Positions 1,868 through 60,675 of a stretch of 64,000 bases of DNA are shown piece by piece. Numbering within the stretch: position 1 is the first letter of the stretch; every line of letters begins with the position of its first letter. Origin of the DNA: Siphonodentalium dalli (Eukaryota > Mollusca > Scaphopoda > Gadilida > Siphonodentaliidae); NCBI GenBank assembly GCA_032622095.1, contig CP136062.1, positions 227,056,578 through 227,120,577 on the forward strand, written 5' to 3'. The notes under the pieces are model-generated. The model was not told where the DNA came from. It did no database searches and saw only the letters and a list, made by a program, of their open reading frames with translations. A program made the translations under genes and the position numbers.

Positions 1868-1957
1868 AGTCCCTATTGAAACCTCTTATAATTAAACCGT
1901 TGAACACAATCTCCCATGGGAGTTGATTTAAATACGTGGAGAATTTCAATAGGGACT
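1868..1957. repeat. 14-bp inverted repeat at the retroelement 5' side
   Basis: AGTCCCTATTGAAA at 1868-1881 is the exact reverse complement of TTTCAATAGGGACT at 1944-1957, separated by 62 bases. The second arm lies inside the first codons of the endonuclease frame. Confidence 0.55.
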
Positions 1958-13113: not shown

Positions 13114-13272
13114 TTAAAGATTTCTCAAAATCGCCACCGAGTCAGCAGTGTCAAGCTTAACGAAGAAGGTCAGGTGGAAATTTTCGTTGCATGTTCCGTT
13201 TTTCATCACGCCAACAACAATTCTCTCCCCTGTTGTTGTTTCTTCACACGTGACAGGCCCTCCGACGTCACC
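13114..13272 (-). CDS. Exon 7: GDVGGP segment and C-terminus
   Basis: The acceptor is TTCATTTCAG ending at 13273 and the frame opens in phase 0 directly with GDVGGPVTCEE. In active S1 proteases this is GDSGGP, with Ser-195 as the nucleophile; here it is Val342. The rest (ERIVVGVMKNG, CNENFHLTFFVKLDT) matches the last strands and the C-terminal region of the fold, but the usual final Trp-helix residues are weak. TAA is at 13116-13114. With the exon-6 end the join reads AACD|GDVGGP, the expected Cys-x-Gly-Asp context. Confidence 0.9.
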   Translation of the reverse strand, partial: GDVGGPVTCEETTTGERIVVGVMKNGTCNENFHLTFFVKLDTADSVAILRNL

Positions 13273-19200: not shown

Positions 19201-22200
19201 TTCTGTTTATTATATGCTCCGCTCATTTGGACCATTACGACTCAACTCGAAAGAAGAGTAAACAGAGGAAATGTGTATACCCAAGCACAACCATGGTAAC
19301 GAGCTTGTGCATAAAAAATAGTTCCATTTTTCAGACAGATTGATTGAGGGATAAAGGGGTTAACATCACAGTATGTTTAACAAAATAATTTAATATATAT
19401 CATATATAAAAAAAAAATTCAACCTGAATACTCAGGTACGTTTAGCTTAGTCTTCCATCAAGAAACCTAATCACTTTTAACGTTAGCACGGATGGATAAG
19501 AGTGAGATATCGATATCTCACTAGACGGATAACGGTTTTTATCTGATGCAAAAATACTATTATTTGATAGCCTAGCATATAATAAATGTTATTATTATGT
19601 TATTTTACAATATAATTATGATATTCAATTTGTGTTGGGTTATTTAGTGTTGACTGTAAGGTAAACATGGGTGATAAGGGTGGTAGAACAATTTTGTCAG
19701 CACGACAAGACATATTTAACATGGTGTCTTTACTTCCCTTGGGTTGTGGTAAAGAAATCATTATTAATTTGCTTTAACACGTCAGCCGCTTCGTGATCGT
19801 TTTCCTTGCTAAAATGTGATTGTGTGATAATATAGATCTCAAATTTGTCGCAATTATATACCAAATGTATTAAAACCTTGTCCACTGAATTCGATTCGAG
19901 CCTCGATGACGCTCGCTAGTGCACTAGGTTGATACATTTCATATAAAATAGCGATTAATTAGAGATTATATATTTATAACAGAATGGGAGATCCTTTAGT
20001 AAAGAAATTAGTATTTGATGAGTTACTACTTACCTTGGCTTGTTTCGCCCCACCCCACGATCTTACAGCTCGAGGGATCCACGTCAATCGTATTGTCCTG
20101 ATATTGGAAGCAAGCTGGCGACACACATCTGTTGAAACCGATTGGACGGTTCAATGTGATGGTCACAAGACCGGTGCCTGTAGTTGATAATACGTCGAAC
20201 ATTTAATTAAAGATACATAATCCGAATTAACGCTCCTAAATTACAATTTATTTGGCTTCGGTGGGTAAACAATATTTGATTCGAGTCGAAGAAACCGCCC
20301 ATCAAAGCTCAGAGTTATCATATATCGATTTTTGAAATCTGTTATTTTTCACCACCTGGAATATTTGGCGGCCCAGAAAATATCCGACGAGGCGATCGAC
20401 ATACTCTCGATACTAAATTGCGTTGAACAAACGGCTGATAACACGTTTTTTGAAATGTTATACTATAGTTGATAGATATATTGATAGATTGCAGGCATTT
20501 CGTCATAGAACGTACCCTTACAATATAATAATCGGATCCATAATTGTTTTGCGGTAACTTTTTATGCAAAAAATCATATCCGACTTGCAGGGGAATCTGC
20601 TTTAAATCTTGTGTTTTGTAACTAGTGTCAGAACCGCACTAAAAGATAATGTCTTATTTTAGACGACAAAATTCAAACTTCACCACAAATGTTTAATTCC
20701 GGTGTCAATGGCTATTTTACCTATGTGAAAGTATAGGGAAAATGTGTGATGTGATTTTTATGTAAAAACACACAAGGCTATTGACCAAGCAGGGCCCAGT
20801 GACTATTTTATTCTCTCCTATAATTTCATCCCGCTTCCGTTAGGAGGTCGCTCCGAACCATATTTACATCAGTGTAATCTCTATACGCCAAGAGCTGCAT
20901 GGGAGATACGTTGATTGCATATATACAATACAGGTCCCCAGAATTTTTTTTTACCCCACACCAATAGTACTTATTCCTATAGAAAGGTATCAAACTTGGC
21001 CCGGCCTAAATGTGTTATTTTATTCACAAAGTCCACAATCAGGTTCGAAATACATAACAATAATTTTTTTTACATACATTTCTCATATATGGGTAGAAAG
21101 ATATATTATTACTCTTCAATTTGATGTATTCCGTGTAAAAATTGGTTAAGAAAATCTCCGGTTATGAGCACAGGTCTGACGCAAACCGGCTGTAACGTTT
21201 CACTCGTTCGAGGTGGTGTCCGCCAAACTGGATAAAATAGTCCGGTTTTAACACAGACTTTCGCTTCAAAAACACGCTGAACGGTAAGAAGAATATATAT
21301 ATTGTTTACTGACCAACCTAAACCAATCATGCCACACCACGGCATCGTATCTCTCGTATTTATTGAAAAGTCAGTTTCATAAACCCGGAAGCAAATTGCA
21401 ATTTTCCAAAACCTAAAATATTGTAAGCAAGCCGAAATGAAGTGACACTAATTTGTCATGGGCCAAATATAAAACAAATATATAACGAAGAATTAGTGTA
21501 TATATGCTCTAAATATTTATGAAGTTATATTCTAGTCCATATAATCATAATTATATGTATGTTTTCAAATCGGCATTCGTGTTAATTCAGTCTGTGTATT
21601 AATTTAATTTTTTCTATAACTATATATTGTGTTGTATAAGAACTATAAATAGTACTCATAGCAGACTCGCACAAAATGGCTGGTTTTGGAAAATTTCAAT
21701 TTGCTACCGGGTTTATGAAACGGAATTTTTCAATAAATATGAGAGATACGATGCCGAGATGTGGCGCGACTATTATTGGTTTGGGTGGGCTAGTAAACAA
21801 AACAAGGCAGTGTCTATTCGCCACCTGGGTGGCGAGGTGGCGAATAATCATATTACATATGTATGACTCGCTATACGCCACCCAGGTATATAAGATTGTC
21901 TTCTAACGCGGGAACTTCAAATACGACATACAAGCACATTTTGGCTCACAATTATGTGATCTGTAAGACAGGTGGAGATGGAGGAGGGGGTGGGTGTTGC
22001 ATAACTGATTGAGGATTTTAAGGGTGGGGAAGGGGTACCGTTTGTTTTCCTCATAAAACTTTGTGTCAGATTATTTTCTTGTGCATTAGATGTAAGGATT
22101 TGTGTATTATATTAGGCGTTCATTTCATCGCAAGTTTTAGATTTAGAAGTGCATTTCGGACAAATCTTTGTTGTTGGAATTTGAGGTGGGGTGGCGAATA

Positions 22201-25200
22201 ACATTATTCTTAAAACTCGGACGTCAGTTAGATTTCTACATTTTTGCATTGGATTAGCCGAAATAGGAAATATTTTTCAAGTCAAGTATATGGAAAAAAT
22301 AGTTTGGTCTCACTTCTAAAAAAATTTAAAACACTTTAATGTCCTCGATACTTTCTTATGAGTCTGTTTCTGAGTATATTAAGTATATGCATATCGATAT
22401 TTCGTGTATTTATCGTGAGACGGGGTGACCACCTTCACTATGAATGTGGTGTACATGAGATATCTCATACTTCTATCCTCGTGAATGTGAGACGGGGTGA
22501 TCACCTTCACTATGAATGTGGTGTACATGAGATATCTCATACTTCTATCCTCGTGAATGTGAGACGGGGTGATCACCTTCACTATGAATGTGGTGTACAT
22601 GAGATATCTCATACTTCTATCCTCGTGAATGTGAGACGAGGTGATCACCTTCACTATGAATGTGGTGTACATGAGATATCTCATACTTCTATCCTCGTGA
22701 ATGTGAGACGGGGTGATCACCTTCACTATGAATGTGGTGTACATGAGATATCTCATACTTCTATCCTCGTGAATGTGAGACGAGGTGATCACCTTCACTA
22801 TGGAGGTGGTGTATATGAGATATCTCATACTTCTATCCTCGTGAATGTAAGACGGGGTGACCACCTTCACTATGAATGTGGTGTACATGAGATATCTCAT
22901 ACTTCTATCCTCGTGAATGTGAGACGGGGTGATCACCTTCACTATGAATGTGGTGTACATGAGATATCTCATACTTCTATCCTCGTGAATGTGAGACGGG
23001 GTGATCACCTTCACTATGAATGTGGTGTACATGAGATATCTCATACTTCTATCCTCGTGAATGTGAGACGAGGTGATCACCTTCACTATGCATGTGGTGT
23101 ACATGAGATATCTCATACTTCTATCCTCGTGAATGTGAGACGAGGTGATCACCTTCACTATGAATGTGGTGTACATGAGATATATCATACTTCTATCATC
23201 GTGAATGTGAGACGGGGTGATCACCTTCACTATGCATGTGGTGTACATGAGATATATCATACTTCTATCCTCGTAAATGTGAGACGGGGTGATCACCTTC
23301 ACTATGGAGGTGGTGTACATGAGATATATCATACTTCTATCCTCGTGAATGTGAGACGGGGTGATCACCTTCACTATGAATGTGGTGTACATGAGATATA
23401 TCATACTTCTATCCTCGTGAATGTGAGACGGGGTGATCACCTTCACTATGAATGTGGTGTACATGAGATATATCATACTTCTATCCTCGTGAATGTGAGA
23501 CGGGGTGATCACCTTCACTATGAATGTGGTGTACATGATATATATCATACTTCTATCCTCGTGAATGTAAGACGAGGTGATCACCTTCACTATGGAGGTG
23601 GTGTATATGAGATATCTCATACTTCTATCCTCGTGAATGTGAGACGAGGTGATCACCTTCACTATGGAGGTGGTGTATATGAGATATCTCATACTTCTAT
23701 CCTCGTGAATGTGAGACGGGGTGATAACCTTCACTATGAATATGGTGTATATGAGATATCTCATACTTCTATCCTCGTGAATGTGAGACGAGGTGATCAC
23801 CTTCACTATGGAGGTGGTGTATATGAGATATCTCATACTTCTATCCTCGTGAATGTGAGACGAGGTGATCACCTTCACTATGCATGTGGTGTACATGAGA
23901 TATCTCATACTTCTATCCTCGTGAATGTGAGACGAGGTGATCACCTTCACTATAAATGTGGTGTACATGAGATATATCACACTTCTATCCTCGTGAATGT
24001 GAGACGGGGTGATCACCTTCACTATGAATGTGGTGTACATGAGATATATCATACCTCTATCCTCGTGAATGTGAGACGAGGTGATCACCTTCACTATGAA
24101 TGTGGTGTACATGAGATATATCACACTTCTATCCTCGTGAATGTGAGACGAGGTGATCACCTTCGCTATGAAGGTGGTGTACATGAGATATCTCATACTT
24201 CTATCCTCGTGAATGTGAGACGGGTGACCACCTTCACTATGGAGGCGGTGTACATGAGATATCTCATACTTCTATCCTCGTGAATGTGAGACGATGTGAT
24301 CACCTTCACTATGAATGTGGTGTACATGAGATATCTCATACTTCTATCATCGTGAATGTGAGACGAGGTGATCACCTTCACTATGAATGTGGTGCACATG
24401 AGATATCTCATACTTCTATCCTCGTGAATGTGAGACGGGGTGATCACCTTCACTATGAATGTGGTGTACATGAGATATATCATACTTCTATCCTCGTGAA
24501 TGTGAGACGAGGTGATCATCTTCACTATAAATGTGGTGTACATGAGATATATCACACTTCTATCCTCGTGAATGTGAGACGAGGTGATCACCTTCACTAT
24601 GGAGACGGTGTACATGAAATATCTCATACTTATATCCTCGTGAATGTGAGACGGGTGACCACCTTCACTATGAAGACGGTGTACATGAGATATCTCATAC
24701 TTCTATCATCGTGAATGTGAGACGAGGTGATCACCTTCACTATGAATGTGGTGTACATGAGATATCTCATACTTCTATCATCGTGAATGTGAGACGAGGT
24801 GATCACCTTCACTACGAATGTGGTGTACATGAGATATCTCATACTTCTATCCTCGTGAATGTGAGACGGGGTGATCACCTTCTCTATGGATGTGGTGTAC
24901 ATGAGATATATCATACTTCTATCCTCGTGAATGTGAGACGAGGTGATCACCTTCACTATAAATGTGGTGTACATGAGATATATCACACTTCTATCCTCGT
25001 GAATGTGAGACGAGGTGATCACCTTCACTATAAATGTGGTGTACATGAGATATATCACACTTCTATCCTCGTGAATGTGAGACGGGGTGATCACCTTCAC
25101 TATGGAGGTGGTGTACATGAGATATATCATACTTCTATCATCGTGAATGTGAGACGAGGTGATCACCTTCACTATGCATGTGGTGTACATGAGATATATC

Positions 25201-28200
25201 ATACCTCTATCCTCGTGAATGTGAGACGAGGTGATCACCTTCACTATGAATGTGGTGTACATGAGATATCTCATACTTCTATCCTCGTGAATGTGAGACG
25301 GGGTGATCACCTTCACTATGCATGTGGTGTACATGAGATATATCATACTTCTATCATCGTGAATGTGAGACGAGGTGATCACCTTCAGTATGGAGGTGGT
25401 GTACATGAGATATATCATACTTCTATCATCGTGAATGTGAGACGAGGTGATCACCTTCACTATGAATGTGGTGTACATGAGATATCTCATACTTCTATCA
25501 TCGTGAATGTGAGACGAGGTGATCACCTTCACTATGAATGTGGTGTACATGAGATATATTATACTTCTATCCTCGTGAATGTGAGACGAGGTGATCACCT
25601 TCACTATGAATGTGGTGTACATGAGATATCTCATACTTCTATCCTCGTGAATGTGAGACGAGGTGATCACCTTCACTATGAATGTGGTGTACATGAGATA
25701 TATCATACTTCTATCATCGTGAATGTGAGACGGGGTGATCACCTTCACTATGAATGTGGTGTACATGAGATATATCACACTTCTATCCTCGTGAATGTGA
25801 GACGAGGTGATCACCTTCACTATGAATGTGGTGTACATGAGATATATCATACCTCTATCCTCGTGAATGTGAGACGGGGTGATCACCTTCACTATGAATG
25901 TGGTGTACATGAGATATCTCATACTTCTATCATCGTGAATGTGAGACGAGGTGATCACCTTCACTATGAATGTGGTGTACATGAGATATCTCATACTTCT
26001 ATCCTCGTGAATGTGAGACGAGGTGATCACCTTCACTATGGAGGTGGTGTACATGAGATATATCATACTTCTATCCTCGTAAATGTGAGACGGGGTGATC
26101 ACCTTCACTATGAATGTGGTGTACATGAGATATATCATACTTCTATCCTCGTGAATGTGAGACGAGGTGATCACCTTCACTATAAATGTGGTGTACATGA
26201 GATATATCATACTTCTATCCTCGTGAATGTGAGACGGGGTGATCACCTTCACTATGAATGTGGTGTACATGATATATATCATACTTCTATCCTCGTGAAT
26301 GTGAGACGGGTGATCACCTTCACTATGGAGGTGGTGTACATGAGATATATCATACTTCTATCCTCGTGAATGTGAGACGGGTGATCACCTTCACTATGAA
26401 TGTGGTGTACATGAGATATATCACACTTCTATCCTCGTGAATGTGAGACGAGGTGATCACCTTCACTATGAATGTGGTGTACATGAGATATATCATACTT
26501 CTATCCTCGTGAATGTGAGACGGGGTGATCACCTTCACTATGAATGTGGTGTACATGATATATATCATACTTCTATCATCGTGAATGTGAGACGAGTTGA
26601 TCACCTTCACTATGAATGTGGTGTACATGAGATATCTCATACTTCTATCCTCGTGAATGTAAGACGGGGTGATCACATTCACTATGAATGTGGCGTACAT
26701 GAGATATATCACACTTCTATCCTCGTGAATGTGAGACGGGGTGATCACCTTCACTATGAATGTGGTGTACATGAGATATATCATACTTCTATCCTCGTGA
26801 ATGTGAGACGAGGTGATCACCTTCACTATGAATGTGGTGTACATGAGATATCTCATACTTCTATCATCGTGAATGTGAGACGGGGTGATCACCTTCACTA
26901 TGAATGTGGTGTACATGAGATATATCACACTTCTATCCTCGTGAATGTGAGACGGGGTGATCACCTTCACTATGAATGTGGTGTACATGAGATATATCAT
27001 ACTTATATCCTCGTGAATGTGAGACGGGGTGATCACCTTCACTATGAATGTGGTGTACATGAGATATCTCATACTTCTATCCTCGTGAATGTGATACGGG
27101 GTGATCACCTTCACTATGAATGTGGTGTACATGAGATATCTCATACTTCTGTCCTCGTGAATGTGAGACGAGGTGATCACCTTCACTATGAATGTGGTGT
27201 ACATGAGATATCTCATACTTCTATCCTCGTGAATGTGAGACGGGGTGATCACCTTCACTATGGAGGCGGTGTACATGAGATATCTCATACTTCTATCCTC
27301 GTGAATGTGAGACGGGGTGATCACCTTCACTATGAAGGTGGTGTACATGAGATATCTCATACTTCTATCCTCGTGAATGTGAGACGGGGTGATCACCTTC
27401 ACTATGGAGGTGGTGTACATGAGATATATCATACTTCTATCCTCGTGAATGTGAGACGATGTGATCACCTTCACTATGAATGTGGTGTACATGAGATATC
27501 TCATACTTCTATCATCGTGAATGTGAGACGATGTGATCACCTTCACTATGGAGGTGGTGTACATGAGATATATCATACTTCTATCCTCGTGAATGTGAGA
27601 CGGTGTGATCACCTTCACTATGAATGTGGTGTACATGAGATATCTCATACTTCTATCCTCGTGAATGTGAGACAGGGTGATCACCTTCACTATGGAGGCG
27701 GTGTACATGAGATTTCTCATACTTCTATCCTCGTGAATGTGAGACGATGTGATCACCTTCACTATGAATGTGGTGTACATGAGATATCTCATACTTCTAT
27801 CCTCGTGAATGTGAGACGGGGTGATCACCTTCACTATGAATGTGGTGTACATGATATATATCATACTTCTATCATCGTGAATGTGAGACGGTGTGATCAC
27901 CTTCACTATGAATGTGGTGTACATGAGATATCTCATACTTCTATCCTCGTGAATGTAAGACGGGGTGATCATCTTCACTATGGAGGTGGTGTACATGAGA
28001 TATATCATACTTCTATCCTCGTGAATGTGAGACGGTGATCACTTCACTATGAATGTGGTGTACATGAGATATCTCATACTTCTATCATCGTGAATGTGAG
28101 ACGAGGTGATCACCTTCACTATGCATGTGGTGTACATGAGATATATCACACTTCTATCCTCGTGAATGTGAGACGAGGTGATCACCTTCACTATGAATGT

Positions 28201-31200
28201 GGTGTACATGAGATATCTCATACTTCTATCATCGTGAATGTGAGACGATGTGATCACCTTCACTATGAATGTGGTGTACATGAGATATATCACACTTCTA
28301 TCCTCGTGAATGTGAGACGAGGTGATCACCTTCACTATGGAGGTGGTGTACATGAGATATATCACACTTCTATCCTCGTGAATGTGAGACGAGGTGATCA
28401 CCTTCGCTATGAAGGTGGTGTACATGAGATATCTCATACTTCTATCCTCGTGAATGTGAGACGGGTGACCACCTTCACTATGGAGGCGGTGTACATGAGA
28501 TATCTCATACTTCTATCCTCGTGAATGTGAGACGATGTGATCACCTTCACTATGAATGTGGTGTACATGAGATATCTCATACTTCTATCATCGTGAATGT
28601 GAGACGAGGTGATCACCTTCACTATGAATGTGGTGTACATGAGATATCTCATACTTCTATCCTCGTGAATGTGAGACGGGGTGATCACCTTCACTATGAA
28701 TGTGGTGTACATGAGATATATCATACTTCTATCCTCGTGAATGTGAGACGAGGTGATCATCTTCACTATAAATGTGGTGTACATGAGATATATCACACTT
28801 CTATCCTCGTGAATGTGAGACGAGGTGATCACCTTCACTATGGAGACGGTGTACATGAAATATCTCATACTTATATCCTCGTGAATGTGAGACGGGTGAC
28901 CACCTTCACTATGAAGACGGTGTACATGAGATATCTCATACTTCTATCATCGTGAATGTGAGACGAGGTGATCACCTTCACTATGAATGTGGTGTACATG
29001 AGATATCTCATACTTCTATCATCGTGAATGTGAGACGAGGTGATCACCTTCACTACGAATGTGGTGTACATGAGATATCTCATACTTCTATCCTCGTGAA
29101 TGTGAGACGGGGTGATCACCTTCTCTATGGATGTGGTGTACATGAGATATATCATACTTCTATCCTCGTGAATGTGAGACGAGGTGATCACCTTCACTAT
29201 AAATGTGGTGTACATGAGATATATCACACTTCTATCCTCGTGAATGTGAGACGAGGTGATCACCTTCACTATGAATGTGGTGTACATGAGATATCTCATA
29301 CTTCTATCCTCGTGAATGTGAGACGAGGTGATCACCTTCACTATGAATGTGGTGTACATGAGATATATCATACTTCTATCATCGTGAATGTGAGACGGGG
29401 TGATCACCTTCACTATGCATGTGGTGTACATGAGATATCTCATACTTCTATCATCGTGAATGTGAGACGAGGTGATCACCTTCACTATGAATGTGGTGTA
29501 CATGAGATATATCATACCTCTATCACCGTGAATGTGAGACGAGGTGATCACCTTCACCATGCATGTGGTGTACATGAGATATATCATACTTCTATCATCG
29601 TGAATGTGAGACGAGGTGATCACCTTCACTATGAATGTGGTGTACATGAGATATATCATACTTCTATCACCGTGAATGTGAGACGAGGTGATCACCTTCA
29701 CCATGCATGTGGTGTACATGAGATATATCATACTTCTATCATCGTGAATGTGAGACGGGGTGATCACCTTCACTATGCATGTGGTGTACATGAGATATAT
29801 CACACTTCTATCCTCGTGAATGTGAGAGGAGGTGATCACCTTCACTATGAATGTGGTGTACATGAGATATATCATACTTCTATCCTCGTGAATGTGAGAC
29901 GGGGTGATCACCTTCACTATGCATGTGGTGTACATGAGATATATTATACTTCTATCCTCGTGAATGTGAGACGAGGTGATCACCTTCACTATAAATGTGG
30001 TGTACATGAGATATCTCATACTTCTATCCTCGTGAATGTGAGACGAGGTGATCACCTTCACTATGAATGTGGTGTACATGAGATATATTATACTTCTATC
30101 CTCGTGAATGTGAGACGAGGTGATCACCTTCACTATAAATGTGGTGTACATGAGATATCTCATACTTCTATCCTCGTGAATGTGAGACGAGGTGATCACC
30201 TTCACTATGAATGTGGTGTACATGAGATATATCACACTTCTATCCTCGTGAATGTGAGACGGGGTGATCACCTTCACTATGAATGTGGTGTACATGAGAT
30301 ATCTCATACTTCTATCCTCGTGAATGTGAGACGAGGTGATCACCTTCACTATGAATGTGGTGTACATGAGATATCTCATACTTCTATCATCGTGAATGTG
30401 AGACGAGGTGATCACCTTCACTATGAATGTGGTGTACATGAGATATCTCATACTTCTATCCTCGTGAATGTGAGACGGGGTGATCACCTTCACTATGAAT
30501 GTGGTGTACATGATATATATCATACTTCTATCATCGTGAATGTGAGACGAGGTGATCACCTTCACTATGCATGTGGTGTACATGAGATATATCACACTTC
30601 TATCCTCGTGAATGTGAGACGAGGTGATCACCTTCACTATGAATGTGGTGTACATGAGATATATCATACCTCTATCCTCGTGAATGTGAGACGAGGTGAT
30701 CACCTTCAGTATGGAGGTGGTGTACATGAGATATATCATACTTCTATCATCGTGAATGTGAGACGGGGTGATCACCTTCACTATGAATGTGGTGTACATG
30801 ATATATATCATACTTCTATCCTCGTGAATGTGAGACGGGGTGATCACCTTCACCATGAAGGTGGTGTACATGAGATATATCATACTTCTATCCTCGTGAA
30901 TGTGAGACGGGGTGATCACCTTCACTATGAATGTGGTGTACATGATATATATCATACTTCTATCATCGTGAATGTGAGACGAGGTGATCACCTTCACTAT
31001 GAATGTGGTGTACATGAGATATCTCATACTTCTATCCTCGTGAATGTGAGACGGGGTGATCACCTTCACTATGAATGTGGTGTACATGAGATATCTCATA
31101 CTTCTATCATCGTGAATGTGAGACGAGGTGATCACCTTCACTATGAATGTGGTGTACATGAGATATCTCATACTTCTATCATCGTGAATGTGAGACGAGG

Positions 31201-34200
31201 TGATCACCATCACTATGAATGTGGTGTACATGAGATATCTCATACTTCTATCCTCGTGAATGTGAGACGAGGTGATCACCTTCAGTATGGAGGTGGTGTA
31301 CATGAGATATATCATACTTCTATCCTCGTGAATGTGAGACGGGGTGATCACCTTCACTATGAATGTGGTGTACATGAGATATATCATACTTCTATCCTCG
31401 TGAATGTGAGACGAGGTGATCACCTTCACTATAAATGTGGTGTACATGAGATATATCACACTTCTATCCTCGTGAATGTGAGACGAGGTGATCACCTTCA
31501 CTATGAATGTGGTGTACATGAGATATCTCATACTTCTATCCTCGTGAATGTGAGACGAGGTGATGACCTTCACTATGAATGTGGTGTACATGAGATATAT
31601 CATACTTCTATCATCGTGAATGTGAGACGAGGTGATCACCTTCACTATGCATGTGGTGTACATGAGATATATCACACTTCTATCCTCGTGAATGTGAGAC
31701 GAGGTGATCACCTTCACTATGAATGTGGTGTACATGAGATATATCATACTTCTATCCTCGTGAATGTGAGACGAGGTGATCACCTTCACTATGGAGGTGG
31801 TGTACATGAGATATATCATACTTCTATCCTCGTGAATGCGAGACGGGGTGATCACCTTCACTATGAATGTGGTGTACATGATATATATCATACTTCTATC
31901 ATCGTGAATGTGAGACGAGTTGATCACCTTCACTATGAATGTGGTGTACATGAGATATCTCATACTTCTATCCCCGTGAATGTGAGACGAGGTGATCACC
32001 TTCACTATGAATGTGGTGTACATGATATATATCACACTTCTATCCTCGTGAATGTGAGACGGGGTGATCACCTTCACTATGAATGTGGTGTACATGAGAT
32101 ATATCATACTTCTATCCTCGTGAATGTGAGACGGGGTGATCACCTTCACTATGAATGTGGTGTACATAAGATATATCACACTTCTATCCTCGTGAATGTG
32201 AGACGGGGTGATCACATTCACTATGAAGGTGGTGTACATGAGATATCTCATACTTCTATCCTCGTGAATGTGAGACGGGGTGATCACCTTCACTATGAAT
32301 GTGGTGTACATGAGATATCTCATACTTCTGTCCTCGTGAATGTGAGACGAGGTGATCACCTTCACTATGAATGTGGTGTACATGAGATATCTCATACTTC
32401 TATCCTCGTGAATGTGAGACGGGGTGATCACCTTCACTATGGAGGCGGTGTACATGAGATATATCATACTTCTATCCTCGTGAATGTGAGACGGGGTGAT
32501 CACCTTCACTATGAAGGTGGTGTACATGAGATATCTCATACTTCTATCCTCGTGAATGGGAGACGGGGTGATCACCTTCACTATGGAGGTGGTGTACATG
32601 AGATATATCATACTTCTATCCTCGTGAATGTGAGACGATGTGATCACCTTCACTATGAATGTGGTGTACATGAGATATCTCATACTTCTATCATCGTGAA
32701 TGTGAGACGATGTGATCACCTTCACTATGGAGGTGGTGTACATGAGATATATCATACTTCTATCCTCGTGAATGTGAGACGGTGTGATCACCTTCACTAT
32801 GAATGTGGTGTACATGAGATATCTCATACTTCTATCCTCGTGAATGTGAGACGGGGTGATCACCTTCACTATGGAGGCGGTGTACATGAGATATCTCATA
32901 CTTCTATCCTCGTGAATGTGAGACGATGTGATCACCTTCACTATGAATGTGGTGTACATGAGATATCTCATACTTCTATCATCGTGAATGTGAGACGGGG
33001 TGATCACCTTCACTATGAATATGGTGTACATGATATATATCATACTTCTATCATCGTGAATGTGAGACGGTGTGATCACCTTCACTATGGAGGTGGTGTA
33101 CATGATATATATCATACTTCTATCCTCGTGAATGTGAGACGGGGTGATCATCTTCACTATGGAGGTGGTGTACATGAGATATCTCATACTTCTATCCTCG
33201 TGAATGTGAGACGGGGTGATCACCTTCACTATGAATGTGGTGTACATGAGATATCTCATACTTCTATCATCGTGAATGTGAGACGATGTGATCACCTTCA
33301 CTATGATTGTGAGATATCTCATACTTCTATCCTCGTGAATGTGAGACGATGTGATCACCTTCACTATGGAGGTGGTGTACATGAGATATATCATACTTCT
33401 ATCCTCGTGAATGTGAGACGGGGTGATCACCTTCACTATGAATGTGGTGTACATGAGATATCTCATACTTCTATCATCGTGAATGTGAGACGGGGTGATC
33501 ACCTTCACTATGAATGTGGTGTACATGAGATATCTCATACTTCTATCCTCGTGAATGTGAGACGAGGTGATCACCTTCACTATGGAGGTGGTGTACATGA
33601 GATATATCATACTTCTATCCTCGTGAATGTGAGACGGGGTGATCACCTTCACTATGGAGGTGGTGTACATGAGATATCTCATACTTCTATCCTCGTGAAT
33701 GTGAGACGAGGTGATCACCTTCACTATGGAGGTGGTGTACATGAGATATATCATACTTCTATCCTCGTGAATGTGAGACGGGGTGATCACCTTCACTATG
33801 GAGGTGGTGTACATGAGATATATCATACTTCTATCCTCGTGAATGTGAGACGGGGTGATCACCTTCACTATGAATGTGGTGTACATGAGATATCTATACT
33901 TCTATCCTCGTGAATGTGAGACGGTGTGATCACCTTCACTATGAATGTGGTGTACATGAGATATCTCATACTTCTATCCTCGTGAATGTGAGACGGGGTG
34001 ATCACCTTCACTATGGAGGTGGTGTACATGAGATATATCATACTTCTATCCTCGTGAATGTGAGACGGGTGATCACCTTTACTATGAATGTGGTGTACAT
34101 GAGATATCTCATACTTCTATCATCGTGAATGTGAGACGAGGTGATCACCTTCACTATGCATGTGGTGTACATGAGATATCTCATACTTCTATCATCGTGA

Positions 34201-37200
34201 ATGTGAGACGAGGTGATCACCTTCACTATGAAGGTGGTGTACATGAGATATCTCATACTTCTATCCTCGTGAATGTGAGACGAGGTGATCACCTTCACTA
34301 TGAAGGTGGTGTACATGAGATATATCACACTTCTATCCTCGTGAATGTGAGACGAGGTGATCACCTTCACTATGAAGGTGGTGTACATGAGATATCTCAT
34401 ACTTCTATCCTCGTGAATGTGAGACGGGTGACCACCTTCACTATGGAGACGGTGTACATGAGATATATCATACTTCTATCCTCGTGAATGTGAGACGAGG
34501 TGATCACCTTCACTATAAATGTGGTGTACATGAGATATATCACACTTCTATCCTCGTAAATGTGAGAGGAGGTGATCACCTTCACTATGAATGTGGTGTA
34601 CATGAGATATCTCATACTTCTATCCTCGTGAATGTGAGACGGGTGACCACCTTCACTATGGAGACGGTGTACATGAGATATATCATACTTCTATCCTCGT
34701 GAATGTGAGACGAGGTGATCACCTTCACTATAAATGTGGTGTACATGAGATATCTCATACTTCTATCCTCGTGAATGTGAGACGGGTGACCACCTTCACT
34801 ATGGAGACGGTGTACATGAGATATATCATACTTCTATCCTCGTGAATGTGAGACGAGGTGATCACCTTCACTATAAATGTGGTGTACATGAGATATATCA
34901 CACTTCTATCCTCGTGAATGTGAGACGAGGTGATCACCTTCACTATGAATGTGGTGTACATGAGATATCTCATACTTCTATCCTCGTGAATGTGAGACGA
35001 GGTGATCACCTTCACTATGAATGTGGTGTACATGAGATATATCATACTTCTATCATCGTGAATGTGAGACGAGGTGATCACCTTCACTATGAATGTGGTG
35101 TACATGAGATATCTCATACTTCTATCCTCGTGAATGTGAGACGAGGTGATCACCTTCACTACGAATGTGGTGTACATGAGATATATCATACTTCTATCCT
35201 CGTGAATGTGAGACGAGGTGATCACCTTCACTATGGAGACGGTGTACATGAGATATCTCATACTTCTATCATCGTGAATGTGAGACGAGGTGATCACCTT
35301 CACTACGAATGTGGTGTACATGAGATATCTCATACTTCTATCCTCGTGAATGTGAGACGAGGTGATCACCTTCACTATGGAGGTGGTGTACATGAGATAT
35401 ATCATACTTCTATCCTCGTGAATGTGAGACGGGGTGATCACCTTCACTATGAATGTGGTGTACATGAGATATATCATACTTCTATCCTCGTGAATGTGAG
35501 ACGAGGTGATCACCTTCACTATAAATGTGGTGTACATGAGATATCTCATACTTCTATCCTCGTGAATGTGAGACGAGGTGATCACCTTCACTATGCATGT
35601 GGTGTACATGAGATATATCACACTTCTATCCTCGTGAATGTGAGACGGGGTGATCACCTTCACTATGAATGTGGTGTACATGAGCTATATCATACTTCTA
35701 TACTCGTGAATGTGAGACGGGGTGATCACCTTCACTATGAATGTGGTGTACATGAGATATATCACACTTCTATCCTCGTGAATGTGAGACGGGGTGATCA
35801 CATTCACTATGAAGGTGGTGTACATGAGATATCTCATACTTCTATCCTCGTGAATGTGAGACGGGGTGATCACCTTCACTATGAATGTGGTGTACATGAG
35901 ATATCTCATAATTCTGTCCTCGTGAATGTGAGACGAGGTGATCACCTTCACTATGAATGTGGTGTACATGAGATATCTCATACTTCTATCCTCGTGAATG
36001 TGAGACGGGGTGATCACCTTCACTATGGAGGCGGTGTACATGAGATATATCATACTTCTATCCTCGTGAATGTGAGACGGGGTGATCACCTTCACTATGA
36101 AGGTGGTGTACATGAGATATCTCATACTTCTATCCTCGTGAATGTGAGACGGGGTGATCACCTTCACTATGGAGGTGGTGTACATGAGATATATCATACT
36201 TCTATCCTCGTGAATGTGAGACGAGGTGATCACCTTCACTATAAATGTGGTGTACATGAGATATATCACACTTCTATCCTCGTGAATGTGAGACGAGGTG
36301 ATCACCTTCACTATGAATGTGGTGTACATGAGATATCTCATACTTCTATCCTCGTGAATGTGAGACGAGGTGATCACCTTCACTATGAATGTGGTGTACA
36401 TGAGATATATCATACTTCTATCATCGTGAATGTGAGACGAGGTGATCACCTTCACTATGCATGTGGTGTACATGAGATATCTCATACTTCTATCCTCGTG
36501 AATGTGAGACGGGGTGATCACCTTCACTATAAATGTGGTGTACATGAGATATATCATACTTCTATCCTCGTGAATGTGAGACGAGGTGATCACCTTCACT
36601 ATGAATGTGGTGTACATGAGATATCTCATACTTCTATCATCGTGAATGTGAGACGAGGTGATCACCTTCACTATGAATGTGGTGTACATGAGATATCTCA
36701 TACTTCTATCATCGTGAATGTGAGACGAGGTGATCACCTTCACTATGAATGTGGTGTACATGAGATATCTCATACTTCTATCATCGTGAATGTGAGACGA
36801 GGTGATCACCTTCACTACGAATGTGGTGTACATGAGATATCTCATACTTCTATCCTCGTGAATGTGAGACGAGGTGATCACCTTCACTATGGAGGTGGTG
36901 TACATGAGATATATCATACTTCTATCCTCGTGAATGTGAGACGGGGTGATCACCTTCACTATGAATGTGGTGTACATGAGATATATCATACTTCTATCCT
37001 CGTGAATGTGAGACGAGGTGATCACCTTCACTATAAATGTGGTGTACATGAGATATATCACACTTCTATCCTCGTGAATGTGAGACGAGGTGATCACCTT
37101 CACTATGAATGTGGTGTACATGAGATATATCATACTTCTATCCTCGTGAATGTGAGACGAGGTGATCACCTTCACTATGGAGGTGGTGTACATGAGATAT

Positions 37201-40200
37201 ATCATACTTCTATCATCGTGAATGCGAGACGGGGTGATCACCTTCACTATGAATGTGGTGTACATGATATATATCATACTTCTATCATCGTGAATGTGAG
37301 ACGAGTTGATCACCTTCACTATGAATGTGGTGTACATGAGATATCTCATACTTCTATCCTCGTGAATGTGAGACGAGGTGATCACCTTCACTATGCATGT
37401 GGTGTACATGAGATATATCACACTTCTATCCTCGTGAATGTGAGACGGGGTGATCACCTTCACTATGAATGTGGTGTACATGAGATATATCACACTTCTA
37501 TCCTCGTGAATGTGAGACGGGGTGATCACATTCACTATGAAGGTGGTGTACATGAGATATCTCATACTTCTATCCTCGTGAATGTGAGACGGGGTGATCA
37601 CCTTCACTATGAATGTGGTGTACATGAGATATCTCATACTTCTGTCCTCGTGAATGTGAGACGAGGTGATCACCTTCACTATGAATGTGGTGTACATGAG
37701 ATATCTCATACTTCTATCCTCGTGAATGTGAGACGGGGTGATCACCTTCACTATGGAGGCGGTGTACATGAGATATATCATACTTCTATCCTCGTGAATG
37801 TGAGACGGGGTGATCACCTTCACTATGAAGGTGGTGTACATGAGATATCTCATACTTCTATCCTCGTGAATGTGAGACGGGGTGATCACCTTCACTATGG
37901 AGGTGGTGTACATGAGATATATCATTCTTCTATCCTCGTGAATGTGAGACGATGTGATCACCTTCACTATGAATGTGGTGTACATGAGATATCTCATACT
38001 TCTATCATCGTGAATGTGAGACGATGTGATCACCTTCACTATGGAGGTGGTGTACATGAGATATATCATACTTCTATCCTCGTGAATGTGAGACGGTGTG
38101 ATCACCTTCACTATGAATGTGGTGTACATGAGATATCTTATACTTCTATCCTCGTGAATGTGAGACGGGGTGATCACCTTCACTATGGAGGCGGTGTACA
38201 TGAGATATCTCATACTTCTATCCTCGTGAATGTGAGACGATGTGATCACCTTCACTATGAATGTGGTGTACATGAGATATCTCATACTTCTATCCTCGTG
38301 AATGTGAGACGGGGTGATCACCTTCACTATGAATATGGTGTACATGATATATATCATACTTCTATCATCGTGAATGTGAGACGGTGTGATCACCTTCACT
38401 ATGGAGGTGGTGTACATGATATATATCATACTTCTATCCTCGTGAATGTGAGACGGGGTGATCACCTTCACTACGGAGGTGGTGTACATGAGATATCTCA
38501 TACTTCTATCCTCGTGAATGTGAGACGGGGTGATCACCTTCACTATGAATGTGGTGTACATGAGATATCTCATACTTCTATCATCGTGAATGTGAGACGA
38601 TGTGATCACCTTCACTATGAATGTGGTGTACATGAGATATCTCATACTTCTATCCTCGTGAATGTGAGACGATGTGATCACCTTCACTATGTAGGTGGTG
38701 TACATGAGATATATCATACTTCTATCCTCGTGAATGTGAGACGGGGTGATCACCTTCACTATGAATGTGGTGTACATGAGATATCTCATACTTCTATCAT
38801 CGTGAATGTGAGACGGGGTGATCACCTTCACTATGAATGTGGTGTACATGAGATATCTCATACTTCTATCCTCGTGAATGTGAGACGAGGTGATCACCTT
38901 CACTATGGAGGTGGAGTACATGAGATATATCATACTTCTATCCTCGTGAATGTGAGACGGGGTGATCACCTTCACTATGGAGGTGGTGTACATGAGATAT
39001 CTCATACTTCTATCCTCGTGAATGTGAGACGAGGTGATCACCTTCACTATGGAGGTGGTGTACATGAGATATATCATACTTCTATCCTCGTGAATGTGAG
39101 ACGGGGTGATCACCTTCACTATGGAGGTGGTGTACATGAGATATATCATACTTCTATCCTCGTGAATGTGAGACGGGATGATCACCTTCACTATGAATGT
39201 GGTGTACATGAGATATCTCATACTTCTATCCTCGTGAATGTGAGACGGTGTGATCACCTTCACTATGAATGTGGTGTACATGAGATATCTCATACTTCTA
39301 TCCTCGTGAATGTGAGACGGGGTGATCACCTTCACTATGGAGGTGGTGTACATGAGATATATCATACTTCTATCCTCGTGAATGTGAGACGGGTGATCAC
39401 CTTCACTATGAATGTGGTGTACATGAGATATCTCATACTTCTATCATCGTGAATGTGAGACGAGGTGATCACCTTCACTATGCATGTGGTGTACATGAGA
39501 TATATCACACTTCTATCCTCGTGAATGTGAGACGAGGTGATCACCTTCACTATGAAGGTGGTGTACATGAGATATCTCATACTTCTATCCTCGTGAATGT
39601 GAGACGGGTGACCACCTTCACTATGGAGGCGGTGTACATGAGATATATCATACTTCTATCCTCGTGAATGTGAGACGAGGTGATCACCTTCACTATAAAT
39701 GTGGTGTACATGAGATATATCACACTTCTATCCTCGTGAATGTGAGACGAGGTGATCACCTTCACTATGAATGTGGTGTACATGAGATATCTCATACTTC
39801 TATCCTCGTGAATGTGAGACGAGGTGATCACCTTCACTATGAATGTGGTGTACATGAGATATATCATACTTCTATCATCGTGAATGTGAGACGAGGTGAT
39901 CACATTCACTATGCATGTGGTGTACATGAGATATATCACACTTCTATCATCGTGAATGTGAGACGAGGTGATCACCTTCACTATGAATGTGGTGTACATG
40001 AGATATCTCATACTTCTATCACCGTGAATGTGAGACGAGGTGATCACCTTCACTATGAATGTGGTGTACATGAGATATCTCATACTTCTATCATCGTGAA
40101 TGTGAGACGAGGTGATCACCTTCACTACGAATGTGGTGTACATGAGATATCTCATACTTCTATCCTCGTGAATGTGAGACGATGTGATCAGCTTCACTAT

Positions 40201-43200
40201 GGAGGTGGTGTACATGAGATATATCATACTTCTATCCTCGTGAATGTGAGACGGGGTGATCACCTTCACTATGAATGTGGTGTACATGAGATATATCATA
40301 CTTCTATCCTCGTGAATGTGAGACGAGGTGATCACCTTCACTATAAATGTGGTGTACATGAGATATATCACACTTCTATCCTCGTGAATGTGAGACGAGG
40401 TGATCACCTTCACTATGAATGTGGTGTACATGAGATATCTCATACTTCTATCCTCGTGAATGTGAGACGAGGTGATCACCTTCACTATGAATGTGGTGTA
40501 CATGAGATATATCATACTTCTATCATCGTGAATGTGAGACGAGGTGATCACCTTCACTATGCATGTGGTGTACATGAGATATATCATACCTCTATCCTCG
40601 TGAATGTGAGACGAGGTGACCACCTTCACTATAAATGTGGTGTACATGAGATATATCACACTTCTATCCTCGTGAATGTGAGACGAGGTGATCACCTTCA
40701 CTATGAATGTGGTGTACATGAGATATCTCATACTTCTATCCTCGTGAATGTGAGACGAGGTGATCACCTTCACTATGAATGTGGTGTACATGAGATATAT
40801 CATACTTCTATCATCGTGAATGTGAGACGAGGTGATCACCTTCACTATGCATGTGGTGTACATGAGATATATCATACCTCTATCCTCGTGAATGTGAGAC
40901 GAGGTGATCACCTTCACTATGAATGTGGTGTACATGAGATATATCATACTTCTATCCTCGTGAATGTGAGACGAGGTGATCACCTTCACTATGAATGTGG
41001 TGTACATGAGATATCTCATACCTCTATCCTCGTGAATGTGAGACGAGGTGATCACCTTCACTATGAATGTGGTGTACATGAGATATATCATACTTCTATC
41101 CTCGTGAATGTGAGACGAGGTGATCACCTTCACTATGAATGTGGTGTACATGAGATATATCACACTTCTATCCTCGTGAATGTGAGACGAGGTGACCACC
41201 TTCAGTATGGAGGTGGTGTACATGAGATATATCACACTTCTATCCTCGTGAATGTGAGACGAGGTGATCACCTTCACTATGAATGTGGTGTACATGAGAT
41301 ATATCATACTTCTATCCTCGTGAATGTGAGACGAGGTGATCACCTTCACTATGAATGTGGTGTACATGAGATATCTCATACTTCTATCCTCGTGAATGTG
41401 AGACGAGGTGATCACCTTCACTATGAATGTGGTGTACATGAGATATATCATACTTCTATCCTCGTGAATGTGAGACGAGGTGATCACCTTCACTATGGAG
41501 GTGGTGTACATGAGATATATCATACTTCTATCCTCGTGAATGTGAGACGAGGTGATCACCTTCACTATGGAGGTGGTGTACATGAGATATATCATACTTC
41601 TATCCTCGTGAATGTGAGACGAGGTGATCACCTTCACTATGGAGGCGGTGTACATGAGATATATCATACTTCTATCCTCGTGAATGTGAGACGGGGTGAT
41701 CACCTTCACTATGAATGTGGTGTACATGAGATATATCACACTTCTATCCTCGTGAATGTGAGAGGAGGTGATCACCTTCACTATGAATGTGGTGTACATG
41801 AGATATATCATACTTCTATCCTCGTGAATGTGAGACGAGGTGATCACCTTCACTATGGAGGTGGTGTACATGAGATATATCATACTTCTATCATCGTGAA
41901 TGTGAGACGGGGTGATCACCTTCACTATGAATGTGGTGTACATGATATATATCATACTTCTATCCTCGTGAATGTGAGACGGGGTGATCACCTTCACCAT
42001 GAAGGTAATGTACATGAGATATATCATACTTCTATCCTGGTGAATGTGAGACGGGGTGATCACCTTCACTATGAATGCGGTGTACATGATATATATCATA
42101 CTTCTATCATCGTGAATGTGAGACGAGGTGATCACCTTCACTATGAATGTGGTGTACATGAGATATCTCATACTTCTATCCTCGTGAATGTGAGACGGGG
42201 TGATCACCTTCACTATGAATGTGGTGTACATGAGATATCTCATACTTCTATCATCGTGAATGTGAGACGAGGTGATCACATTCACTATGAATGTGGTGTA
42301 CATGAGATATCTCATACTTCTATCATCGTGAATGTGAGACGAGGTGATCACCTTCACTATGAATGTGGTGTACATGAGATATCTCATACTTCTATCCTCA
42401 TGAATGTGAGACGAGGTGATCACCTTCACTATGGAGGTGGTGTACATGAGATATATCATACTTCTATCCTCGTGAATGTGAGACGGGGTGATCACCTTCA
42501 CTATGAATGTGGTGTACATGAGATATATCATACTTCTATCCTCGTGAATGTGAGACGAGGTGATCACCTTCACTATAAATGTGGTGTACATGAGATATAT
42601 CACACTTCTATCCTCGTGAATGTGAGACGAGGTGATCACCTTCACTATGAATGTGGTGTACATGAGATATCTCATACTTCTATCCTCGTGAATGTGAGAC
42701 GAGGTGATCACCTTCACTATGAATGTGGTGTACATGAGATATATCATACTTCTATCATCGTGAATGTGAGACGAGGTGATCACCTTCACTATGCATGTGG
42801 TGTACATGAGATATATCACACTTCTATCCTCGTGAATGTGAGACGAGGTGATCACCTTCACTATGAATGTGGTGTACATGAGATATATCATACTTCTATC
42901 CTCGTGAATGTGAGACGAGGTGATCACCTTCACTATGGAGGTGGTGTACATGAGATATATCATACTTCTATCATCGTGAATGTGAGACGGGGTGATCACC
43001 TTCACTATGAATGTGGTGTACATGATATATATCATACTTCTATCCTCGTGAATGTGAGACGGGGTGATCACCTTCACCATGAAGGTGGTGTACATGAGAT
43101 ATATCATACTTCTATCCTCGTGAATGTGAGACGGGGTGATCACCTTCACTATGAATGTGGTGTACATGATATATATCATACTTCTATCATCGTGAATGTG

Positions 43201-46200
43201 AGACGAGTTGATCACCTTCACTATGAATGTGGTGTGCATGATATATCTCATACTTCTATCCTCGTGAATGTGAGACGAGGTGATCACCTTCACTATGAAT
43301 GTGGTGTACATGAGATATAACATACTTCTATCCTCGTGAATGTGAGACGGGGTGATCGTCTGTTGTCCTGTCTGTATTGCATGTTCTCCCAGCGTCACCG
43401 ATATGTCGGTTCCATTGCCAACAGTTTGCCTAATGAAAGTAACAAAATATAGTAATATATCTTTGTCAGACTGTTAAGTAAATTCTTGAAACACTAAGAG
43501 GGCATTATTAATCATAATAAGGGACCTGGTTAGGGCTCCCTGTTGTGTGGGGAGGGGAGCACTGGAAATTTCCAACTGCATCACCCCGCTTGAACCAAAC
43601 TCTCATTTTCGCGACATTCCATCCCCCCCCCCCCCACTTCCCTGGTGATTATTCAAGAACATAATGAGAACACCATCGTCAAAACTCGAGTCATAAACTC
43701 ATTTTAATTATAATTGTACCATGATGTTTGCATCGTTCATAGAGCACATGAGTGTATTTCGCACTAATCCATGGCTCAAATACATTCGTTTGTTGCATAT
43801 ATTCTGTTGAGTATATATAATAGGAGATGGTCCCAAAAATGGCCGGTTTTAGTGTACAGTACCTCTTTATTAGTAACAAAAAATGGTATATAAAACATTC
43901 AATTTTATTCAGACAATGGGATTGGAGGACAAGTTCTGGTCTCACTATGGGTACCACCCCTTTCCCATTTTATAGCATATAAGAACTCAAAATTGTTCTG
44001 AAGGTGTTAATCTGAATCTTTCCAATTCAAATGTTCAAATATTAACTTGATACGTCGTTATCCCATTAACGATGGTCAATATCTTCCAATAACAAGTTGT
44101 ATATGATTTTCTGGATATAACATAATAAATATGAGTCGAAGACCCCTGTCCGGAATCGCTTCTATCAATTAGTGTTGTTTTTTAAATCCCATTTTCTGGT
44201 ATAATACATATACTTATTTGGGATGCCAGGCGGTCTCATATACAATCATGTAGATATATAGTTCTCCCGCTCGCTATGCTCCGAACGTTTCCGCGGAGAT
44301 CGTGGAAACATTCGAAGAGTAAAAAGCGGGAGAACTCTATCTCTATCTGAGATCGCCTGAAGTTTCAGGCCGGCTGTTTTAACCCTTTACCCAACAAACC
44401 GGCCAAAAACGGCCAAATAAAGCTGCAACAGCCTAAATTATCTTGGGTCTGTCTCAATAAAACCATACAAATATGGATATCATTGGAACCGGCTCATTGA
44501 CCACATTGTGATGGTTACAGTTATGCCCTGTGCCAATGCATTCTCTTATATATGCGAGTCGACCATAGGTCGCCTCGCATATATAAGAGAATGCATTGGC
44601 CTAAAAAAACACTTTTTACCATTTTTTCTTACATTCTTTAACAATTTTATAATTTTTAATATGTTAAGCCAATGCATTCTCTTATATATGCGAGGCGACC
44701 TATGGTCGACTCGCATATATAAGAGAATGCATTGGCACAGGGCCCTTCTGTTGGGTAAAGGGTTAAACAAATAGCCTGTAAAATGTTCCAATTGATTGTA
44801 TGGATATAATATTATAAGCAGTTTTTCCGGACAGGGTTCTTCGATTCATAAGTATTATTTTATACACAGGAAACAATATACAACTCGTTCCAGGAAGAGA
44901 TAAACCACATTTAAAGACCCTTATAACGTTCGTGCTCCAGATTAGTTCTATTCTGAGCCATCAACGAACAGTTTTGATCAAGAACTGTGACAAAAATATA
45001 TATTTCGATATACTACAACATATTTTTGCCCATAAATATCCTCAGAACGATAGGAAAACTTGTTTCAGCCTTTTAAGGCAATCGTGCATGTAACTGCATA
45101 CTTATGTATATAAATTTATCGGTTGTTTATTTTTAGCTTCAACATTAATACAACGGTTCTTTTTCTAAAAGATTGCTATAAATTTATAGTGGGCTGAGTT
45201 ATGGACCACCTTAACCATGTATATACTAAATACTCATTAACGACTAGTTATTCCTTATCCAATGTTCACATAATAAGATCAACGGTCGATTGTTGAACTT
45301 ATTATCTAAACATTTCCCGCCTAAGAATGTGAATTTATATTCACTCTTATTATCTATCGCCTGCTTATATATCATGAACACCACTCCAAATGAATAATAG
45401 ACCATTCCAATGTATACTTATATAACTGAGTGGGAGAATACATTTGGTATAGTGGAGTGGAAGGCGGGCATTGCACCATCGGGGGTTGGGGAGCCCCAAC
45501 CGACCTTAAGTCAACCGGCTGGCATTGCACCCTCTTCCTAGAGTTGAGCCCGTAGTACAACAGACTAAGGGAACTGGAGTTCACGCACAGCACTAAAATA
45601 GGGCATTATGTATCAACTATTCACAACTCTAAACAATATATGTACATATCAACGCACAAAACTCACACGGGTAAATCAAGGTAAATCTTCTCCGCCGGTC
45701 CTGGTTCTGAATGGGGGTGGGGCTTTGCTTCTTGCTTTGGTGGCATCCACCTCATGCACGGTATATATAGGCAACCACCTACTGTGCATGAGCTTATATC
45801 AATCTAACAAACTCTACAAACGCTCTTCGGCGGAATTAAGGCAACAAACAGTGGGTTGTAGGAGAGGGCCGACGGCCCTTTCAAATCTTCCCGGGTATCA
45901 CCCAAAACTCCAAACTCTCTCATTTGGTATATAAAGGGTTAATCGTGTAGCCGGTCCTATTGGTTAACCCTTTATCCAACAGAACGGCCCTGTGCCAATG
46001 CATTCTCTTATATATGCGAGTCGACCATAGGTCAATGCATTCTCTTATATATGCGAGGCGACCTATGGTCGACTCGCATATATAAGAGAATGCATTGGCA
46101 CAGGGCATAACTGTAACCATCACAATGTGGTCAATGAGCCGGTTCCAATGATATCCATATTTGTATGGTATTATTGAGACAGACCCAAGATAATTTAGGC

Positions 46201-59300: not shown

Positions 59301-60668
59301 ATTCTAACCCACACATTATCATGTAATAGTTCATTCTAACCCACACATTATCATGTAACAGTTCATTCTAACCCACACATTATCATGTAACAGTTCATTC
59401 TAACCCACACATTATCATGTAATAGTTCATTCTAACCCACACATTATCATGTAAGAGTTCATTCTAACCCACACATTATCATGTAATAGTTCATTCTAAC
59501 CCACACATTATCATGTAATAGTTCATTCTAACCCACACATTAGCATGTAATAGTTCATTCTAACCCACACATTATCATGTAATAGTTCATTCTAACCCAC
59601 ACATTATCATGTAATAGTTCATTCTAACCCACACATTATCATGTAATAGTTCATTCTAACCCACACATTATCATGTAATAGTTCATTCTAACCCACACAT
59701 TATCATGTAATAGTTCATTCTAACCCACACATTATCATGTAACAGTTCATTCTAACCCACACATTATCATGTAATAGTTCATTCTAACCCACACATTATC
59801 ATGTAAGAGTTCATTCTAACCCACACATTATCATGTAATAGTTCATTCTAACCCACACATTATCATGTAATAGTTCATTCTAACCCACACATTAGCATGT
59901 AATAGTTCATTCTAACCCACACATTATCATGTAATAGTTCATTCTAACCCACACATTATCATGTAACAGTTCATTCTAACCCACACATTATCATGTAATA
60001 GTTCATTATAACCCACACATTATCATGTAACAGTTCCTTTTAACCCACACATTATCATGTAACAGTTCATTCTAACCCACACATTATCATGTAATAGTTC
60101 ATTCTAACCCACACATTATCATGTAACAGTTCATTCTAATCCACACCTTATCATGTAACAGTTCATTCGAACCCTCACATTATCATATAATAGTTCATTC
60201 TAACCCACACATTATCATATAATAGTTCATTCTAACCCACACATTATCATTTTAACAGTTCATTCTAACCCACACATTATCATATAATAGTTCAATAGTT
60301 CATTCTAACCCACACATTATCATGTAACAGTTCAATAGTTCATTCTAACCCACACATTATCATATAATAGTTCAATAGTTCATTCTAACCCACACATTAT
60401 CATATAATAGTTCAACAGTTCATTCTAACCAACACATTATCATGTAATAGTTCATTCTAACCCACACATTATCATGTACTAGTTCATTCTAACCCACACA
60501 TTATCATGTAACAGTTCATTCTAACCCACACATTATCATATAATAGTTCATTCTAACCAACACATTATCATGTAACAGTTCATTCTAACCCACACATTAT
60601 CATGTAACAGTTCATTCTAACCCACACATTATCATGTAATAGTTCATTCTAACCCACACATTATCATG
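56326..60668. repeat. 32-bp minisatellite, ~136 units
   Basis: The unit is ATTCTAACCCACACATTATC followed by ATGTAATAGTTC, with common variants TAACAG, TAAGAG and CATGATCATG. It is nearly uniform until about 60130; beyond that, units are more diverged and some carry an extra AATAGTTC. Every unit has stops, so there is no coding. It resumes at 61157-61302 after an insertion. Confidence 0.95.
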
Positions 60669-60675
60669 TAATATA

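Follow-up and report, generated by a model that had tools for sequence, protein, structure and literature searches.

How is the first of some 290 nearly identical splice donors chosen in a single intron? The question is raised by a 64,000-nucleotide stretch of the genome of the scaphopod Siphonodentalium dalli (C2:227056578-227120577, hereafter the window, in the assembly searched, 2.23 Gb in 9 contigs), where most of intron 4 of a gene for a trypsin-like protein is occupied by a 72-bp tandem array whose first copy lies within exon 4 and its donor. Our reading, to which we give a probability of roughly 0.8 from the sequence comparisons below, is that this array would be a giant "mirage," as such repeats were named in amphioxus, seeded across an exon-intron junction and tolerated inside the intron.

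Tandem Repeats Finder (TRF) places the array at 22415..43357 on the minus strand, with a period of 72 bp, 291.2 copies and 94% matches, making up 21 kb of the 23-kb intron. Monomer 1 consists of the final 32 nt of exon 4 (43357-43326) and the initial 40 nt of intron 4. The exon itself is 104 nt long (43326..43429, minus strand, from the gene model and repeat matches) and is followed by the donor GTATGT from 43325; within it the array match ends at 43357 and goes no further. The monomer alignment yielded 292 rows, the final one partial and 275 of them without indels. At the donor site (positions -3 to +6, with the border marked by a slash), GAA/GTATGA was found in 232 of the 292 rows, GAA/GTGTGA in 40 and GAG/GTATGA in 8, with GAA/GTATAA (4 rows) and TAA/GTATGA (3 rows) as rarer forms. 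GAA/GTATGT occurs once, in the exon copy, which alone among the array rows has T at +6. The GT is lost in two rows, one has a deletion after it, and one ends before the site; of the 291 rows long enough to include it, 289 retain the dinucleotide (288 of the 290 further copies beyond the exon copy). Five interior copies differ from the exon copy by 1 base. Against the rest, the exon copy has a median of 4 differences, which is also the median between all copies, and the coding end of exon 4 therefore does not stand out from the array. No higher-order structure was seen, mean monomer identity being nearly flat between lag 1 (0.948) and lag 40 (0.945), and the monomer had no match in the viral contigs searched with it. 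These results agree with the preliminary description of this DNA, which had claimed a 21-kb, 72-bp array of about 290 copies, a monomer straddling the junction of exon 4 and its donor, and near-identical donor copies down the intron; the junction is also borne out by the single-copy exon-4 ends of paralogous genes (see below).

The host gene lies on the minus strand between 52871 and 13114; its seven exons give a coding sequence of 1176 nt (391 residues), and all phases are consistent. Its joined protein matches the Pfam family Trypsin (PF00089; E value of 3.1e-21, residues 151-380). Among solved structures, its best hits by sequence are hepatocyte growth factor-like protein and plasminogen; in the search of a protein database for homologues, none of 2896 candidates passed. 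The catalytic His and Ser are missing, with TTKEC instead of AAHC and GDVGGP instead of GDSGGP, which we take to be the consensus motifs. These residues make it very likely that the product is an inactive protease homologue. A protein search of the genome returned 23 exon matches, five of them from the window gene itself; 22 are located on C2 at 226.8-227.1 Mb and one at C2 198.8 Mb. Five paralogues (A to E) were placed within C2:226825001-227035000 and form, together with the window gene (F), a cluster of six genes. The His motif is missing from exon 3 of all five paralogues, and likewise the Ser motif from exon 7. Three lines of evidence back exon 4 of the window gene: its frame and phase agree with exons 3 and 5, the joined protein matches the trypsin domain, and paralogues A, C, and D have an exon 4 as well.

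The paralogues also bear on the direction of the process. In A, C, and D the tail of exon 4 can be aligned with its F counterpart up to the final residue, ungapped at the end, and the donors there have no junction-crossing copies; exon 3, for its part, ends in all six genes with the region around the lost catalytic histidine. The arrays thus derive from the exons and not the reverse, because A, C, and D keep a homologous exon-4 end without an array. The array was also considered as a coding exon. From stop to stop, the exon frame is open over 1298 codons; along the array, the exon-4 frame stays open for approximately the first 53 units, until a 1-base deletion in unit 53 breaks it, and further breaks come later. 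This candidate was ruled out by opposite-strand frames that are equally long, by the 1-base deletions and by a ratio of nonsynonymous to synonymous variants per site (N/S) of 0.99 (11 synonymous and 44 other distinct variants in 275 monomers). Distinct variants number 19, 18, and 18 at codon positions 1, 2, and 3. The 72-bp array is without coding selection.

We propose that a tandem duplication across the end of exon 4 and its donor would have started the array. Unequal exchange would then probably have expanded it within intron 4 to about 291 copies. Such an array would be tolerated because the sequence upstream of the first donor is unchanged. The first donor would be transcribed first and would close the normal 104-nt exon, and the later copies would leave with the intron. 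Duplications across donors would be nearly neutral, since the first donor would still work. The amphioxus mirages are said not to disturb splicing (PMC3087553, PMC3902484; these and the other papers cited here are represented by excerpts of their text).

The intron-4 array is not the only one of its type in the gene. A second donor-straddling array, AT-rich and absent from the preliminary description, which covered the intron-4 array only, was found by TRF and repeat matching in intron 3 (46354..48193, minus strand, TRF periods of 63-142 bp). TRF rows span 46354-47089 and 47750-48279, and the stretch between them is not array. Its unit joins the final 32 nt of exon 3 (48248-48279; the exon is 184 nt long, 48248..48431, minus strand) to the GTGAGT donor and has 15-16 further copies, depending on the measure used. 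It has no match with the intron-4 unit. The exon part is 32 nt in both arrays of the window gene, which is likely a coincidence, because it ranges from 10 to 49 nt across the other seven arrays of the cluster.

These nine arrays emerged from a set of 28 donors and 24 acceptors in the six genes, placed by homology and consensus (a few are off by ~1 base); the set comprises the junctions of located exons, with those of exons that were not found, exon 4 of B and E included, falling outside it. Junction-crossing copies were found at 9/28 donors (exon 6 of A; exons 3, 5, and 6 of B; exon 3 of C; exon 3 of D; exon 6 of E; and exons 3 and 4 of F) and at 1/24 acceptors (Fisher P value of 0.014). The single acceptor is that of C exon 6 (C2:226932015-226932225, 71 bp x 3), where any of the three acceptors may be the one in use. 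All nine donors are the upstream edge of their own array, with the next copy at most 115 bp away. The number of further donor copies ranges from 2 to 290 over the nine loci, with GT kept in 469/485; exon 3 of C has 121 (117 within 6 kb by another count), while the small arrays are those of A exon 6, with 1-2 further copies, and B exon 6, with two. The nine units had no mutual match at an E value of 1e-3, although for two of them the intron part, at 8-9 nt, is not long enough to tell. The comparison indicates that events of the same type arose separately several times in this gene family.

With nine natural loci posing one question, namely, how the first donor is chosen among copies that are equal or better, the locus can be regarded as a natural test of splice-site choice among many copies. 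Scoring of the splice sites, which the preliminary description had proposed when it asked how the first donor is picked, was run as predicted U1 pairing; by this prediction the question stands, but site strength does not answer it. Compared with the true site (-4.3 kcal/mol), predicted pairing was equal for 276 of the 290 decoys, better for 11, and worse for 2 (1 unscored), and the nearest better-pairing decoy lies 32 units, or ~2.3 kb, downstream of the true donor. At exon 3 of C, the nine bases of the true site recur unchanged in 50 of the 121 further copies, and the strength of these nine bases therefore cannot explain the choice there. Use of the second donor would introduce a stop in seven of the nine arrays and a frameshift in one, remaining open only for exon 4 of F (reading phases for the paralogues were borrowed from the window gene), so that the first donor must serve mostly, unless decay is wanted. 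The first donor is thus probably the one used, and the order of transcription together with the length of the exon (exon definition) likely lies behind its choice.

In the cluster, nearly every array covering an intron start begins across the junction. This was quantified by counting array edges, a measure adopted because a donor can only end an array and never lie inside it, and picked only after plain coverage had given no donor excess. Among 3000 random positions, 776 were interior to arrays and 2224 were not, with 112 edges in both directions, i.e., 2.5% per direction. Array edges were found at 9/28 donors, far above this random rate (P value of 1.8e-8), and at 0/24 acceptors. Counting one event per exon class, the figure is 4/28 donors (P value of 0.005). 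The motif GTRAGT, present in 19/28 true donors, was also tested at all 307 sites beyond the placed donors; 153 of them are interior, and the other 154 include 3 edges in the same direction and 6 in the opposite one. Along the border, the edge counts (of 28) are 4 at -15, 9 at 0, 6 at +15 and +30, 3 at +60, and 1 at +75, i.e., a peak at the junction that declines within ~75 nt. Deeper in the introns, 8-9/28 positions are interior, near the regional 776/3000.

Kinase and myosin exons elsewhere in the genome were used as controls. From 43 exon ends, 34 had a donor-like site under a loose rule (GTRNG near the match end) and 9 were dropped; the stretches compared (extending 300-360 bp beyond the exon match and starting 50-60 bp ahead of its end) were shorter than those of the cluster, and L087, an acceptor-side stretch, was excluded. 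Junction-crossing copies were present in 3/34 controls, of which 2 are independent. One is a kinase exon on C1 (L063), with the donor motif 7 times in 420 bp, and the others (L070 and L072) are myosin paralogues on C4 with one 67-bp duplication common to both. Two more stretches, L058 and L061, have copies that lie away from the donor-like site and were not counted. The cluster is richer in donor arrays than the controls (Fisher P value of 0.03), and the control sequences indicate that donor-crossing repeats are not limited to it. We also observed, at C2:149826753-150603706, at least 87 protein kinase frames of near-equal score, most of them ~281 codons long and many ~2.4-2.9 kb apart.

Several points weigh against an array seeded at a donor and spliced at its first copy. 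Duplicated donors are often spliced at the intron-proximal site, which the simple first-donor picture leaves unexplained. Human ABCA7, with a comparable array, leaks partly to its second unit (PMC5954066). The region is very repeat-rich, and by plain coverage, where a position counts if a crossing copy lies within 6 kb, such copies are found at 396/1153 random positions (321/1078 without the big array), leaving the 9/28 donors ordinary (P value of 0.46); by this measure it is the acceptors that deviate, being low at 1/24 (P value of 0.003). The paralogues are not fully independent, and the controls are not significant, either as 3/34 (P value of 0.05) or as 2 independent cases of 33 (P value of 0.20).

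As to why donors would be affected so often, the explanation that survives best, at somewhat below even odds, is that they are mutational hot spots where a process tied to transcription or splicing (e.g., polymerase pausing, or R-loops with breaks at exon ends) starts duplications. It would fit the finding that edges are in excess at true donors and not at other GTRAGT motifs, the peak of edge positions at the junction, the dissimilarity of the units to each other and the presence of affected junctions in two unrelated control genes, the kinase exon and the myosin pair. However, the nucleotides themselves reveal no mechanism, the control families alone fall short of significance, plain coverage gives no excess, and amphioxus mirages occur at both boundaries (PMC3087553). 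We put forward only tentatively the broader idea that true donors may be birth sites of satellite-like arrays in this lineage, with a splicing- or transcription-tied process that keeps starting duplications, introns that grow from their 5' ends, and exon ends that join the concerted evolution of the array. If the donor excess were true genome-wide, it would point to a tie between the birth of minisatellites and splicing or transcription, and to one way for introns to grow.

It is rather doubtful that a selection filter acts alone, with duplications arising evenly, those in exons or across acceptors being purged, and those across donors being harmless. A downstream copy of a donor leaves the exon intact, while an upstream copy of an acceptor would be met first, and the counts are in keeping with this, since acceptors are never edges (0/24) and fall below plain coverage (1/24, P value of 0.003) with donors at the coverage level. 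Nevertheless, a filter cannot lift donors over neutral intron positions, and edges are found at 9/28 donors versus 2.5-2.7%.

We consider it improbable that the copies are functional, either as a bank of U1 sites shielding a long intron from early polyadenylation or as a regulated leak tuning protein or decay. The GT kept in 469/485 further copies of the nine arrays, the exon-4 frame open through ~53 units, and the use of repeat-unit donors in human IFI6 (PMC4526556) and ABCA7 (PMC5954066) could be taken in this sense, but N/S is 0.99, in 8/9 arrays the second donor would bring a stop or frameshift, and predicted U1 pairing is weak (-4.3 kcal/mol). In the large arrays, moreover, GT conservation exceeds that of the other positions only slightly, and in the intron-3 array (10/16) it is lower. 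That the array came first and exon 4 was later extended into it by a donor shift is very hard to credit, for all that five interior copies differ from the exon copy by at most one base, given that in A, C, and D the homologous exon-4 end is free of any array and that the exon-3 unit contains the stretch around the lost catalytic histidine found in all six genes.

The remaining exons of the gene model, all on the minus strand, are exon 1 (52640..52871, with the start codon and a hydrophobic N-terminal stretch), exon 2 (50006..50179), exon 5 (20034..20177), exon 6 (17074..17252), and exon 7 (13114..13272, with GDVGGP at the position of the catalytic serine motif and the stop codon). A dispersed palindromic element, CCAATGCATTCTCTTATATATGCGAG, and variants of it lie in introns 2 and 3 (~44532-44600, 44668-44736, 45993-46100, and 49771-49841); its core had no exact match in the viral contigs. 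Upstream of the gene there are large arrays at 56326-60673 (32 bp x 135) and 62716-64000 (50 bp x 26, reaching the window end), with no link to any placed exon. Retrotransposon frames are found at 1904-5174 on the plus strand, with an endonuclease (PF03372) and a reverse transcriptase (PF00078) in separate frames and a third frame that matches no family.

Arrays straddling a splice junction have precedents, contrary to what the preliminary description had implied, in the amphioxus mirages and in the variable number tandem repeat (VNTR) of human ABCA7. As in mirages, the 72-bp unit spans an exon-intron boundary and its copies carry splice signals (GT in 288/290 further copies), and as in a donor-supplying VNTR, unit 1 provides the donor of the exon, judging from sequence alone. 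The mirages of amphioxus (Adh3, globins, troponin C, and PGBD5) are likewise tandem repeats across exon-intron boundaries, with splice signals in many copies and normal mRNA reported. Their units measure 10-72 bp in the case of Adh3 and 150-160 bp in that of the globins; the copy numbers given are low (3 and 6 in BflGb6), and both boundaries are affected (PMC3087553, PMC3902484). Here, in contrast, there are up to ~291 copies over 21 kb, and donors are 9/10 of the cluster cases. The minisatellite of human IFI6 (6-16) differs in its short unit of 12 bp. It resembles the present arrays in providing several splice donors (Turri 1995, from its title; PMC4526556, PMC2572611), but its alternative donors are in use (PMC4526556). 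Internal tandem repeats of human segmental duplications are also located at exon-intron boundaries of recently duplicated genes, although they average 4 copies of 30 bp and are considered a source of new introns (PMC2812944). The VNTR in intron 18 of ABCA7 is similar in that the array starts at the exon-18 donor and the GT of the unit is that donor; it has a 25-bp unit in ~12 to 427 copies, up to 10.7 kb, but its unit starts at the GT, with no exon repeat stated in the excerpts, and it is a single locus with a known second-unit leak and a link to disease (PMC5954066). Within the literature on repeats at splice sites that was covered, in part and with few subscription journals, we met with no description of a gene cluster in which donor arrays recur, nor of any preference for donors. 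Compared to this known kind, what is new in S. dalli is the size of the array, its recurrence over the cluster, and the bias to donors.

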